Assembly: GCA_029262055.1 (NCBI GenBank)
Contig: JAJDAD010000004.1
Location: 1-37,708 of the forward strand
Direction: 5' to 3'
Source of the DNA: Candidatus Zhuqueibacterota bacterium
GTDB taxonomy: Bacteria > Zhuqueibacterota > Zhuqueibacteria > Oceanimicrobiales > Oceanimicrobiaceae
DNA length: 37,708 bases
Under the pieces are notes generated by a model that searched no databases, had not been told where the DNA came from, and worked only from the letters and a program-made list of their open reading frames with translations. This document shows positions 19,910 to 37,573 of the stretch, piece after piece. The number at the start of each line of letters is the position of its first letter. Position 1 is the stretch's first letter. A program made the position numbers and the translations under genes.

Positions 19910-20194
19910 CTGACCGTCACTGCAAGACACCTCGAAAATGTGAACCTTTAGTACTCCGAATCTTCCTTCTTAAAATTATTTCTTGTTTCACAATATGCTA
20001 GTATCTATGTTGGTGCTGGTGTTGTCTTCGTGATTCTTCCAACATTATCCTTAATGGGCAGGGACAAAGTGGAGAACTACCGTACATTCCCAATAGATCA
20101 ATAAACGAAGTTGTGCTACCTGGACTTTGTCGAGAAATGATCTGATGAACAATTTCCCATTCCATTAAATCACGAGCTAAACACGGAGGTTGCC

Positions 20195-20512
20195 ATGCAG
20201 TACCGCGTTGCCCTCGCTCCCCAGCTTGAGTTATCCGCCTCTGAGTTCGTAGCGGCCTGGAACACGAGTCAACATGCCGAAGGTGCCCCGGCTGTCGTCG
20301 ATGAAGTTCTCAGGGAATCGTTCTTGTCGCCGGAAACCACGGTTGCCCTTATCACGGTGGCAGTGACTATCCCGGCCACCGTGATCGCCAGCTTTGTCTC
20401 GGAATACCTGAAGAAGAAATTCATTGAAAGGGAACCCCCAAAAGTGACGGTCACCACGATCAGTGCCCCGGACGGACAACCCGTCTGGATCGTCAAACAG
20501 ACAGAAGAATAA
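20195..20512 (+). CDS. Small single-helix protein partnered with the CHAT-STAND protein
   Basis: A 105-aa protein with a soluble N-terminal part (YRVALAPQLELSASEFVAAWNTS), one hydrophobic helix (TTVALITVAVTIPATVIASFV, about 48-68), a basic anchor (EYLKKKFIERE) and a C-terminal strand-like tail (VTVTTISAPDGQPVWIVKQTEE). The EFVAAWN motif plus one helix resembles small proteins found before CHAT-domain genes in other bacteria; that likeness is from memory. GGAGG sits 5 bases before the ATG. Its stop is 34 bases before the CHAT gene, so the two are almost surely one operon. It might be a membrane anchor, sensor or protease target. Confidence 0.7.
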   Translation: MQYRVALAPQLELSASEFVAAWNTSQHAEGAPAVVDEVLRESFLSPETTVALITVAVTIPATVIASFVSEYLKKKFIEREPPKVTVTTISAPDGQPVWIVKQTEE

Positions 20513-20546
20513 ACACGACATCGCCAAGACCCAGCGAGGTATGTCC

Positions 20547-23500
20547 ATGGCCACGCCGATCATAGTCCGCGAAGTGAAGAAAAACAAAAAGAGCTTTGCC
20601 GCCACCGTGCAGTTTGACCCGGAGGGCGCGCCGTATGAGATTACGGTAACCGATCCGTTTTCAGAGCAGGAGGAGGATCTGCTGGAATGGTATTTTGAGG
20701 ACTGGTTGAATTTTCCCTTCACCGACAAGGTTCCCGCCGAACAGGCCGCGACCAGCATTCGCGCTTATGGCGAGGCGTTGTTTGAGCAAGTCTTCCGGCG
20801 CAATCCTGATGTTTATCACGAATATCGAGAATTGCGAGCTGAAGACATCAGTCTGGAGATTATCGGCTCGCCGGAGTTCCACGCGCTGCACTGGGAGGCC
20901 CTGCACGATCCCAACGATGAGCGGCCGCTGGCGGTGGATGCGGTGGTGGTGCGCAAAAACCTGAAGCCGGTTAGGAAACGGGCCAAAGTGCAGCCGGCAC
21001 CCCAACTGCGGGTGCTCCTGGTCACCGCCCGTCCGTCCGGTGTGCGCGACGTCAGCTACCGTACCGTCTCCCGGCCCCTGGTTGAGGCATTGGAGACCGG
21101 CAAAGTTGCGGCTCAAATTGATATGGTGCGCCCCGGCACTTTTGAAGCCTTGGTGAACCACCTGGAAGATGTGCGGGACAGGCACGGCGACGGCTACTAC
21201 CACATCATCCACCTCGACATGCACGGAGCCTTGCTCACCTACGCCCAGTATCAAAAAATTGCGGAGGAACACCGGCCTAATCGGTACACCTTCCGCGGCG
21301 ACTACGCCAAAACGCCCATAAAGAAATACCACGGTCAGAAGGCATTCTTGTTTTTTGACGACACCGATGGGAAAGCGGAAAGCGGCGGCGAACCGGTCAG
21401 TGCCGATGACCTGGCCCACCTGCTCAATATGCGCCAGGTACCCGTTGTGATACTCAATGCCTGCCAGTCCGGTAAACAGGTGGGAGAAGCAGAAACCAGT
21501 TTGGGTGGTCGCCTTTTAGCCGCCGGAGCGCAACTGGTGGTGGCCATGGGCTATTCGGTTACGGTATCTGCGGCGCGGCTGTTGATGACCACCCTCTACC
21601 GTCAACTGCTGGCCGGGCGAGAGCCGGCTGTGGCGATTAGGCGGGCGCGGCTGGAACTGTACAACGACAAGCGCAGGCAAGCCGCTTTTGGCCAGGAAAT
21701 CAAGCTGGAAGATTGGCTGTTGCCGGTCATTTACCAGAACCGTGCCCCCGGCTTCGACAAAGACACCTTCCAGGGCGTGGTGGTGACCACCGCTACACCC
21801 TATGCTCCACCCCGCACGACCTATCGTTTTGTGGGGCGCGACGTTGATATTCTGCAAGTAGAGCGCCACTTGTTACATGAGCGCAACCTGTTGCTGATAC
21901 GCGGCATGGGGGGCGCCGGCAAAACCACCTTGCTGCATCACCTGGGCTGGTGGTGGCAAAAGACCCGCTTTGTGGCGCAAGTCTTTTACTTTGGCTACGA
22001 TGCCAGGGCGTATCATCTGCAGGAAATTGTGAGCGCGATCGGCGGGCAGTTGGGGTTGGACCTCTCCGGCATTGCAGCCGATGACCGCGCAGCGGTGCTG
22101 CATGAGTTGAAAAGCACGCGCCATCTGTTGATTATGGACAACCTGGAATCGATCACCGGCGAACAGTTAGCCGTGCAAAACACGCTGCCGCCGGAAGCAC
22201 AAGCAGAGCTCCGCAGCTTTCTGCAGGAACTCCTGAATACTCAAAGCCTGGTGCTGCTCGGTTCCCGTGGTGGTGAAGAGTGGCTGCGTCCGCACCCGCT
22301 GCGCGCTGGCGATGTGTACGATTTACCGGGGCTGGATTACGAGGCGCAGACCGCGCTGGCCCAGGACATTTTGCAGGTGGCGGGCGCGCCCCGCTACCCG
22401 GAGTTGGCCGGGCACCGGGACGACTTCGAACGATTGCTCAAGCTGCTGGGCGGTTACCCGCTGGCGCTGGAGGTCGTGCTGGCCAACCTGGCGCAGGCCA
22501 CCCCGGCTGAAATTATTGCACGTTTGCAGGCAGCAGATGTCGACCTGGACAATCAGAAGGAGGCGGCTGAAAAAACCGACAGCATCCTGAAATGCATTGA
22601 CTATTCCCACAGCAACCTGTCCGAAGACGCGCAGGCGCTGCTGCTGTGCCTGGCCCCCTTTACCGGCGTGATCAATACCGGCTGGCTTGAACAGTACACG
22701 GAGAGGTTAAAAGCTCAACCTGCCCTGGCCGATTTGCCCTACGCCCAATGGCAGACGGTCTTGCAGGAGGCGGTCAACTGGGGCCTGCTGCAGCCGCACG
22801 AAAAGCTCAATGGTTACCTGCGCTTGCAGCCAATTCTCCCATACTTTCTCAAGACCCGTCTGAGTGATGAATCGCAGGCCGCGCCGAAGCAGGCCATAGA
22901 AGCCGCCTTCCGCGAGCATTACAACGGAATCGGCAATCACTTGGTTCAGGCGCTGCGATCAAAAAAAACGGAAGAGAAACAAATTGGCGGTGTGTTAATT
23001 CGGGTTGAGGAAGAGAACATGCTGGGCGCTGTCCAAATTGCGCTCAAACAGCAAGATGATTTTTGGGGCGCCTATGATGCATTAGAAGAGTACCTTGACC
23101 AAGCGAAGTTGTCCGAAAAACGACTTCTTTTAAGTAAGTTGATTGTTGACTCTCAGGCTAACTTCAAGAATTCAAGTGAGGATTTGTCCTCCACATTCCT
23201 ATTGGCAATGGGTCGGCTTGGGCATGTTCAATTACAAACTCAGCAATATGAAGAGGCCGAGCGGACTTATCGCCAAAAACTTGAACGAATCGAAAATCAA
23301 ACCAGTTGGAGTCGCGAACAGAAGCAACGCTCGCAAGCCTCTACCTTACACCAATTGGGCATCGTGGCGCAGGAACAGCGGCAGTGGCCGGCTGCCGAAG
23401 GCTACTACAAAGAGGCGCTGCAAATCAAAATCGAATTCAAAGACCGCTACGAGCAAGCCGGGACCTTGCACCAATTGGGCAGAGTGGCGCAGGAACAGCG

Positions 23501-23840
23501 GCAGTGGCCGGCTGCCGAAGGCTACTACAAAGAGGCGCTGCAAATCAAAATCGAATTCAAAGACCGCTACGAGCAAGCCTCTACCTTGCACAACTTGGGC
23601 ATCGTGGCGCAGGAACAGCGGCAGTGGCCGGCGGCTGCGGAGTTTGGGTTAGAGGCTGCCGAGATTCTTGTTCAGCATGAGGACCAACACAATTTGGGGA
23701 TTGTGTTGCGCAGCTTGGCTCGCGTCTGGCGGGAGACCCGGAAAGCCCAAATCCCCCGAAAAATCGGAGAGTTACTGGGGATTCCGGTTGCCGAGGCAGA
23801 AGCATTGCTGGGTAAGTTCGAAGACACGGGCTCCGAGTAA
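20547..23840 (+). CDS. CHAT protease - STAND (NB-ARC-like) ATPase - TPR protein
   Basis: A 1097-aa multidomain protein. N-terminal part: beta-rich region (1-145). CHAT caspase-like protease (about 150-400) with H226 in HLDMHG and C306 in LNACQSG. STAND ATPase with Walker A GMGGAGKT (453-460), Walker B LLIMDN (D531), sensor LGSRGG (571-576) and LGGYPLALEV (634-643). A winged-helix/linker region follows, then TPRs (about 870-1065). The layout matches signal-sensing STAND proteases, some of which act in phage defence: TPRs sense, ATPase oligomerises, CHAT cleaves. ATG at 20547 is preferred over 20541 because GAGG is 7 bases away. Function as defence is inferred. Confidence 0.9.
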   Translation: MATPIIVREVKKNKKSFAATVQFDPEGAPYEITVTDPFSEQEEDLLEWYFEDWLNFPFTDKVPAEQAATSIRAYGEALFEQVFRRNPDVYHEYRELRAEDISLEIIGSPEFHALHWEALHDPNDERPLAVDAVVVRKNLKPVRKRAKVQPAPQLRVLLVTARPSGVRDVSYRTVSRPLVEALETGKVAAQIDMVRPGTFEALVNHLEDVRDRHGDGYYHIIHLDMHGALLTYAQYQKIAEEHRPNRYTFRGDYAKTPIKKYHGQKAFLFFDDTDGKAESGGEPVSADDLAHLLNMRQVPVVILNACQSGKQVGEAETSLGGRLLAAGAQLVVAMGYSVTVSAARLLMTTLYRQLLAGREPAVAIRRARLELYNDKRRQAAFGQEIKLEDWLLPVIYQNRAPGFDKDTFQGVVVTTATPYAPPRTTYRFVGRDVDILQVERHLLHERNLLLIRGMGGAGKTTLLHHLGWWWQKTRFVAQVFYFGYDARAYHLQEIVSAIGGQLGLDLSGIAADDRAAVLHELKSTRHLLIMDNLESITGEQLAVQNTLPPEAQAELRSFLQELLNTQSLVLLGSRGGEEWLRPHPLRAGDVYDLPGLDYEAQTALAQDILQVAGAPRYPELAGHRDDFERLLKLLGGYPLALEVVLANLAQATPAEIIARLQAADVDLDNQKEAAEKTDSILKCIDYSHSNLSEDAQALLLCLAPFTGVINTGWLEQYTERLKAQPALADLPYAQWQTVLQEAVNWGLLQPHEKLNGYLRLQPILPYFLKTRLSDESQAAPKQAIEAAFREHYNGIGNHLVQALRSKKTEEKQIGGVLIRVEEENMLGAVQIALKQQDDFWGAYDALEEYLDQAKLSEKRLLLSKLIVDSQANFKNSSEDLSSTFLLAMGRLGHVQLQTQQYEEAERTYRQKLERIENQTSWSREQKQRSQASTLHQLGIVAQEQRQWPAAEGYYKEALQIKIEFKDRYEQAGTLHQLGRVAQEQRQWPAAEGYYKEALQIKIEFKDRYEQASTLHNLGIVAQEQRQWPAAAEFGLEAAEILVQHEDQHNLGIVLRSLARVWRETRKAQIPRKIGELLGIPVAEAEALLGKFEDTGSE
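23333..23632 (+). repeat. 120-bp tandem DNA repeat inside the TPR region (about 2.5 copies)
   Basis: Copies start at 23333, 23453 and 23573 (the last one partial). The first two differ at about six of 120 positions by eye. Each unit encodes 40 residues including LGIVAQEQRQWPAAEGYY and KEALQIKIEFKDRYEQA, one TPR. Such DNA-level identity means recent duplication or gene conversion and should make the copy number variable between strains. Confidence 0.95.
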
Positions 23841-24298: not shown

Positions 24299-25621
24299 AT
24301 GGCGCTAAGGTTTCTCAATAAGAAAACGCACCGCTTCTACTTTGTCAATGAGGCGGGTGAACGAAAAAGTTATGTCCTTACGTTCGGCGATGAGGTCGAT
24401 ACGCGCCAGGGCGCTGCCCCGAGTGGCGCTGCTTTCAGGCGCGTGGCGTACCGCGGCCGTGTCGGCGAGTGGCGCGAACCCGCACTTTCCAGGACGCGCG
24501 GGCTCGAGCTTTATTTTCTCGACGTCGGACAGGGGGATGCCGCATTCATCGTCACCCCGAATAACACGAAAATCCTCATCGACGGTGGCCTGCGCGAGCG
24601 GGCGCTTGGCTTTCTGATTTGGAAGTACCGGCTCGATCTCGCCGGCAACGACGTCACCATAGATCACCTCTTCCTGAGCCACGCTGACAAAGACCATGTC
24701 GAAGGCCTGATTCCTTTGCTCAATCACGATCGCATCACAGTGAATGCTGTCCACCATAACGGCATTGGGCTGTTTGAGTCCGGCTTCAATACCGTGCTCG
24801 GCAACCGCACCGCAGACGGGCGGCTTACCACGTTGCACGATGGACTCAACGACCTGAACGGCTTGAATCTCGCGTCCGGTGGCCAGCAAGTATTCGACGA
24901 CTGGATAGAGGCGGTGCGCGATTCAGGCGCGGCCTATGGCAGGCTGGACCGCTCGACCGGCGTTCTGGATATCGGCGATCCCGCGCTCACCTGCGAAATT
25001 GTGGGTCCGGTTCTGGAACCTGATGGGCAATCGCTAAGATGGCTGGGCGACAAGTCGCATACTATCAACGGGCATTCACTGGTCCTGCGCCTGACGCATG
25101 GCCGGGTGCGAACGTTCTTCTCGGGCGACTTGAACGAGACGGGCAGTGAACACCTGCTGGCAGTCCCTAATGGTGCACTCGATGTGAACGCCCACATTTT
25201 CAAAGCACCGCACCATGGCAGTCATGAGTTCAGCACGGAGCTGTTCCGGGCTGTGCAACCGATGATTACCGTTGTCTCCTCCGGCGAAGTACCCGACCAC
25301 GGACATCCGCGCGCCAACTTTCTTGGGGCCATTGGCGGTGCAGGCCGTGGTGCGGAACCCCTGCTGTTCTCCACCGAAATTGCGGCCTTGTTTGTTGACT
25401 CGGGCGATCCCGCCGCCGTGGCAGATACCGGAACGGTCACCACGTTGGGCGATCTCGACTTCGCGCACGCCGAGGCCAACGCGGAAGCTCGGCGCCGTTT
25501 CAAGAAGGTCTTGCCGGGCATTATCAATGTGCGCAGCGACGGCGATCAAATATTCGCATTCCGGCGAGTCCAGCAAGGCTACCAATGGGAATCGTACGGC
25601 CCGATTGCGCCTGTTCGTTAG
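24299..25621 (+). CDS. ComEC-like metallo-beta-lactamase-fold protein
   Basis: A 440-aa soluble protein. After an 68-residue N-terminal strand-rich domain comes an MBL fold of the ComEC/Rec2 type: LYFLDVGQGDAAFIV (71-85), ILIDGG (92-97), the metal motif SHADKDHVEG (127-136), FFSGDLNETG (about 277) and APHHGSHEFS (about 303), then VPDHGHPRANFLGAI. ComEC-type MBL domains are nucleases or phosphodiesterases; here the channel part is absent, so it is a free hydrolase, often found beside conflict-system genes. ATG at 24299 follows GGAGGG at 8 bases. It lies between the CHAT gene and a two-component system; a direct link to either is not proven. Confidence 0.85.
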   Translation: MALRFLNKKTHRFYFVNEAGERKSYVLTFGDEVDTRQGAAPSGAAFRRVAYRGRVGEWREPALSRTRGLELYFLDVGQGDAAFIVTPNNTKILIDGGLRERALGFLIWKYRLDLAGNDVTIDHLFLSHADKDHVEGLIPLLNHDRITVNAVHHNGIGLFESGFNTVLGNRTADGRLTTLHDGLNDLNGLNLASGGQQVFDDWIEAVRDSGAAYGRLDRSTGVLDIGDPALTCEIVGPVLEPDGQSLRWLGDKSHTINGHSLVLRLTHGRVRTFFSGDLNETGSEHLLAVPNGALDVNAHIFKAPHHGSHEFSTELFRAVQPMITVVSSGEVPDHGHPRANFLGAIGGAGRGAEPLLFSTEIAALFVDSGDPAAVADTGTVTTLGDLDFAHAEANAEARRRFKKVLPGIINVRSDGDQIFAFRRVQQGYQWESYGPIAPVR

Positions 25622-36901: not shown

Positions 36902-37573
36902 CTGGACGGAACTTATCGTCCAGCACCCGTTCGGCGTCACGAGATTCCCAAACGCAGCGGCGGCAAGCGTCCGTTGGGCATCCCGACGGTACTCGACCGT
37001 GTTATCCAGCAGGCGATTCTGCAGGTGGTGCAGCCAGTTTTCGACCCGGGGTTTTCCGAGTCGAGCTTTGGCTTCCGCCCGGGTCGTTCTGCCCACGGCG
37101 CGGTCAAGCAAGTGCGGAAGGTATTGGGCAAAGGCGTCTGGGTTGTGGACATCGACCTGTCAAAGTTCTTCGACAGGGTGAATCACGATGTCCTGATGAC
37201 CCGCGTCGCCCGCAAGGTGAAAGACAAACGCGTGCTGTGTTTGATTCGCCGCTACCTGCGCGCCGGCGTCGAGGTGGACGGTAGCATTCAGCCGACCACC
37301 GAAGGCGTGCCGCAAGGTGGGCCGCTTTCACCTTTGCTGGCCAATATCGTTCTGGATGATTTTGACAAAGAACTGGAACGGCGTGGACACCGTTTTGTGC
37401 GCTATGCTGATGACTTCTTGCTTTTCGTCAGAAGCAGACGCGCCGGCCTTCGGGTCGGACGGAGCGTCGTTTGGTTCCTCAAGCAGCGGCTCAAGCCGGA
37501 GATAAACCGGCAAAAGAGTCGTCTGGTGCGTGCCGGGCAGTGCCAGTATCTGGGTTTTTTTTTTTATCGGTAG
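36902..37573 (+). pseudogene. Truncated group II intron reverse transcriptase/maturase
   Basis: An open frame of 224 codons encodes only the middle of an LtrA-type protein: LDGTYRPAPVRRHEIPKRSG, GIPTVLDRVIQQ, FRPGRSAHGAVKQV, VVDIDLSKFFDRVNHDVLM, the RT motif EGVPQGGPLSPLLANIVLDD and the catalytic RYADDFLLF. The first 60-90 residues are missing; the frame opens at a TGA (36899-36901) right next to the REP. The end collapses after QCQYLGFFF in an 11-base T run, so maturase domain X and any HNH domain are absent. With TTG at 36974 as a nominal start, it could not make a working intron protein. No intron domain V was found downstream. Confidence 0.85.

Follow-up and report, generated by a model that had tools for sequence, protein, structure and literature searches.

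A small and a large gene in the window (by which we mean the whole stretch of 37,708 nucleotides analysed here) form a conserved, protein-coding unit. On balance, we judge it probable that the two genes encode an NLR-like protease switch together with its dedicated small partner, and that this is a CHAT-based variant of the predicted EACC1–caspase conflict system. What would be new here is a compact two-gene relative of the EACC1 systems outside the actinobacteria, with conserved active sites and a defined partner family.

Both genes lie on the forward strand. The small ORF (20195–20512), which encodes the 105-residue EACC1-like partner, is preceded by a GGAGG ribosome-binding site (20185–20189), and its assignment draws on the layout and purifying selection seen in its homologues. 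After a gap of exactly 34 bases (20513–20546), in which a GAGG ribosome site sits 7 nt before the start codon, the large ORF runs in the same orientation from the ATG at 20547 to 23840 and encodes a CHAT-STAND-TPR protein of 1097 residues counted from that ATG. A terminator scan detected no forward terminator in the gap. The coordinates agree with the original prediction, which had placed a 105-residue ORF 34 bases upstream of the large one. By eye, the neighbouring genes in the window are mostly concerned with amino-acid metabolism and do not form a defence island.

The large protein had been predicted to combine a CHAT protease and a STAND ATPase, both with intact active sites, with a TPR sensor, and all three modules were recovered by Pfam searches, alignment and AlphaFold modelling (mean pLDDT 84.7). 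An N-terminal extension (residues 1–70; 20547–20756), which has a conserved EWYFE(D)W motif and no Pfam family, is modelled as three strands and a helix. The CHAT domain (residues 73–383; 20763–21695; PF12770, E 1e-29) contains the catalytic residues His226 (21222–21224, in HLDMHG) and Cys306 (21462–21464, in LNACQSGK). The STAND/NACHT NTPase (residues 427–640; 21825–22466; PF05729, with the Pfam match spanning residues 449–600 at E 3e-6) carries the Walker A lysine K459 (21921–21923, in GMGGAGKT) and the Walker B aspartate D531 (22137–22139). H226, C306, K459 and D531-N532 are invariant across 24 aligned homologues. Past the STAND core the model has a helical region (residues 641–880; 22467–23186), followed by TPR repeats (residues 886–1064; 23202–23738) in near-identical 40-residue units, which Pfam matches over residues 887–1064; the number of recognisable units differs among homologues. 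The effector, the P-loop NTPase with Walker A and B motifs and the C-terminal repeats of an NLR-like STAND sensor are all found, and Foldseek matches include the STAND-TPR protein 6mfv, plant resistosomes and Avs3. In keeping with the original proposal, which was drawn from the architecture, we infer that this protein follows the plan of NLR or STAND sensors and is a protease switched on by a signal, with predicted protease activity.

The succession of effector, STAND NTPase and C-terminal repeat sensor, together with the Avs3 fold match, likens the large protein to Avs/AVAST and bacterial NACHT proteins, but here the effector is CHAT and the unit has two genes. A PADLOC scan of the large protein gave no match to an Avs or bNACHT model, only generic TPR and weak SAVED_CHAT matches; the latter covers the CHAT part only, and the SAVED domain of CalpL and SAVED-CHAT proteins was absent in the Pfam scan. 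With Craspase (Cas7-11, the TPR-CHAT protein Csx29 and the substrate Csx30) the pair shares adjacent genes and a CHAT protease with TPRs, but the order differs, since here CHAT is N-terminal, the TPRs are C-terminal and a STAND NTPase lies between them. No Cas7-11 or type III-E CRISPR gene was seen among the window ORFs, and the small protein had no Csx30-like family match. Bacterial gasdermin operons also set a protease beside a protein that may act on membranes; the partner in the window, in contrast, has 105 residues and lacks gasdermin similarity.

To examine the pairing, loci of the large protein were collected, 80 from genomes and one from a viral contig, and their neighbours were inspected. 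The small gene adjoins the CHAT-STAND-TPR gene in 13 of the 80 genome loci (13 of the 17 that are not cyanobacterial), which belong to a member of the Chloroherpetonaceae, three Chlorobaculum/Chlorobiales, several Chloroflexota including two Chloroploca, and Thiomargarita. It usually lies 3–90 bp upstream of the large gene; in Chloroploca the order is reversed and the small gene is downstream. When a model of the small family was run against the 14,273 ORFs of the large-protein loci, every match was a neighbour of a CHAT-STAND-TPR gene. A genome search with the small family independently found three intact linked copies (in both Chloroploca genomes and in G456), and the small gene of a Chlorobia genome found in the same way (G516) is linked too. 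Family relatives were reached only by inspecting neighbours of the large protein; single-sequence searches with the small protein in plasmids and viral contigs gave no match. The co-occurrence expected of a genuine pair was thus seen in Chlorobia, Chloroflexota, Thiomargarita and a GTA-like viral contig as well as in the window genome. Chance does not explain the arrangement, since many bacteria carry a member of the small family next to the same kind of large gene, and this recurrence, taken with the purifying selection on the small gene (dN/dS 0.27–0.38 in six pairs), establishes the two genes as a conserved, protein-coding unit.

Degraded copies retain traces of the pairing. In Chlorobia, a CHAT remnant lies alongside in two of three decayed copies, and in these two loci (L149 and L150) remnants of both genes are still adjacent. 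At L149 the small gene precedes a frame-broken CHAT gene, at L150 a 28-residue small remnant lies beside a CHAT fragment, and at L151, an exception to the linkage, the N-terminus of the decayed small gene is fused to other sequence. A second copy in G092 (L122) comes after a TPR fragment close to the contig end. One stand-alone member of the small family (L140:8114–8470, reverse strand) lacks the hydrophobic stretch and has no CHAT gene; it lies upstream of a PAS histidine kinase. A family match in G155 was discarded as part of a sensor-kinase-like ORF. On the viral contig (L108:1–16464; IMGVR_UViG_3300042262_000164) the pair stands beside GTA-like tail and muramidase genes; two tandem CHAT-STAND genes are present there, with one small gene between them.

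The pair is thinly spread around the window genome, which alone among 21 close genomes searched has the small gene; the nearest 20 gave no match. The phylum sample held no other close large protein (E ≤ 1e-40). The nearest large protein is from the Chloroherpetonaceae (Chlorobiota), at 70% over 658 columns, and the absence of the pair from close genomes and the phylum sample, together with this relative, suggests that the pair arrived horizontally. In the tree, 53 rows make up a cyanobacterial clade with good support, and the partnered large proteins fall outside it. A relative of the large gene was also found on a cyanobacterial plasmid.

The original prediction could not assign the pairing to a named system. 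A close parallel exists in System 4 of Kaur et al. (2020; PMC7159879), a predicted two-gene system with a 5′ EACC1 gene and a 3′ gene for a caspase-superfamily peptidase that may also carry STAND and repeats; EACC1 has one hydrophobic helix between alpha+beta ends. We found no experimental test of EACC1 systems in the literature searched. The window pair has the same 5′-to-3′ order and domain logic: a 5′ protein of about 105 residues whose alpha+beta ends enclose one hydrophobic stretch, then a 3′ gene that opens with a caspase-superfamily (clan CD) peptidase, here CHAT with intact His and Cys, and in which STAND and repeats follow, as is possible in System 4. CHAT belongs to the caspase superfamily but forms a family distinct from Peptidase_C14, and accordingly the protease differs, being Peptidase_C14 in EACC1–caspase and CHAT (PF12770) here. 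EACC1–caspase pairs are moreover mostly actinobacterial, whereas the present pairs come from Chlorobia, Chloroflexota and the window's phylum; their C-termini are highly variable where ours is a constant STAND-TPR; and the Chloroploca CHAT pairs, unlike EACC1–caspase pairs, have the gene order reversed.

Similarity between the two small families was then measured directly. The Pfam EACC1 family (PF19953) had no match at E ≤ 10 in the window protein and seven relatives, nor in the genome. An EACC1-like query retrieved genuine EACC1s (L128–L138), which match PF19953 at E 1e-27 to 1e-32 (best 2.5e-32) and are mostly followed by a gene annotated as a caspase. Profile alignment of the small family with these (hhalign) gave 97 collinear columns with a score of 23.2 and a weak probability of 18.6. 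In 300 shuffles that kept three segments in place, the mean score was 10.9 and the maximum 21.8, so that none reached 23.2; since an unrelated family pair scored 20.5 as a control, the homology to EACC1 is suggestive only. The pair can therefore be related to a described type of system, and is probably a CHAT-based variant of it, a distant relative and not a proven member, given the failure of PF19953.

A different small partner was found in another lineage. At 35 loci, all but a few of them clearly cyanobacterial, a small hydrophobic family of about 138 residues lies within 2.5 kb of the CHAT-STAND-TPR gene, mostly on the opposite strand (for example L037:14109–14564, L040:13822–14283 and L067:9445–9861, all three on the reverse strand). 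This family has no significant Pfam match and is unrelated to the EACC1-like family. The EACC1-like gene is absent beside the cyanobacterial CHAT-STAND-TPR copies, and no copy was found in the genome of L033 or in 19 cyanobacterial genomes that have the large gene. Of the 18 genome matches that score highest with the 138-residue family, at least 13 coincide with CHAT-STAND loci by their coordinates, which suggests partner exchange on one CHAT-STAND-TPR chassis. A broader reading, in which a common immune chassis bears a lineage-swapped small hydrophobic partner (EACC1-like in Chlorobia, Chloroflexota and the window's phylum, the 138-residue family in cyanobacteria), and in which the protease controls the partner as an effector, so that these bacterial cell-death systems would form a class of their own, undescribed so far and with interchangeable membrane executioners, seems to us unlikely. 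The unrelated cyanobacterial family would make partner swapping directly testable.

In the mechanism that we propose, the C-terminal TPR array and the helical region would sense a signal derived from an invader or from damage. The STAND NTPase, as in other members of its family, would then exchange nucleotide and oligomerise, and the N-terminal CHAT cysteine protease would be activated through His226 and Cys306. The EACC1-like protein, encoded alongside in the same orientation, would act as an obligate partner, either docking the protease at the membrane or serving as a substrate or effector released by cleavage, and the infected cell would die or arrest. If the protease does act on its partner, the pair would be a simple bacterial counterpart of caspase–gasdermin signalling.

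Members of the small family share a beta strand, a helix with an AWN motif, the hydrophobic stretch, which ends in (D/E)-x-L-K, a linker of variable length and a C-terminal PDG beta-hairpin; Pfam, NCBIfam and PADLOC searches with the small protein returned no family match. It had been described as having a single hydrophobic helix. One hydrophobic stretch is indeed present (Kyte–Doolittle 2.3 over 19 residues; above 1.7 in 14 of 16 family members), but the AlphaFold model, an alpha+beta fold of moderate confidence (pLDDT 73.5, from an alignment of 15 sequences), divides it into a strand (49–54) and a helix (61–75), so that one simple membrane helix is not established by the modelling. Hydropathy thus favours membrane contact and the model an alpha+beta domain. 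The latter would fit a soluble adaptor or inhibitor that restrains the protease or links it to EACC- or EAD-like parts and is not a membrane protein, as would the amphipathic look of the conserved (D/E)-x-L-K end and the homologue at L140 without the hydrophobic stretch. Against the hydropathy of the family, and with a moderate model whose PDB fold search gave solely non-significant, eL22-like matches, we regard such a soluble role as possible but on the unlikely side. Rather unlikely, in our estimation, is that the small protein is an executioner or masked toxin from which CHAT cleavage frees a hydrophobic, membrane-damaging fragment in the manner of gasdermins. The variable-length linker after the hydrophobic stretch would suit such a design, and an unrelated small hydrophobic protein near the same chassis at the 35 cyanobacterial loci is what a swappable effector or substrate would produce; however, no conserved cleavage motif was seen in the small proteins, a charged residue occurs within the stretch in about half of the homologues, and the protein, to which no Pfam family matches, falls well short of gasdermins in size.

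The pair might instead serve ordinary regulation that has nothing to do with viruses, for instance proteolysis in stress or development, and here the genomic context has to be weighed. Individual defence neighbours exist: a complete Hma operon (HmaA, HmaB, HmaC) stops some 25 bp short of the CHAT-STAND gene of Candidatus Chloroploca asiatica (L034:605–9972), DarTG lies 2.5 kb from the Chloroherpetonaceae pair, the G456 pair is flanked by TIR (ThsB-like) and DndH-like genes, and L030 has a DUF4062-STAND-TPR gene some 1.1 kb upstream, DUF4062 being reported as an antiphage NADase (PMC13174449). Enrichment in defence islands was nevertheless not seen: raw counts of PADLOC matches among 98 neighbours were not above those among 98 control genes of the same genomes. 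This lack of enrichment and the metabolic context in the window are what ordinary regulation would predict. We nonetheless find that explanation doubtful, given the patchy spread (one of 21 close genomes, with the nearest large-gene relative in Chlorobiota), the decay of copies, the copy on a viral contig and the large-gene relative on a plasmid. Patchy distribution, decay and viral or plasmid carriage are typical of conflict systems. The EACC1-type protease switch remains our preferred reading, and its antiviral function is something we can only infer.

Several other genes were noted. A protein of the MBL fold (24299–25621), ComEC/Avs1a-like and with weak matches to LmuA, Avs1a and DRT-associated MBL models, is encoded 460 bp downstream of the pair; by comparison with AVAST type 1 and Lamassu it was weighed as a third component, and rejected, being absent beside all other pairs. 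The same genome (G000) encodes five further CHAT proteins (C11, C41, C88, C52 and C31), with no small gene seen beside them; those read are TPR-CHAT proteins with a C-terminal CHAT domain, and a protein-kinase gene comes after one of these. Near the end of the window, an ORF at 36974–37573 resembles, by eye, a group II intron reverse transcriptase.
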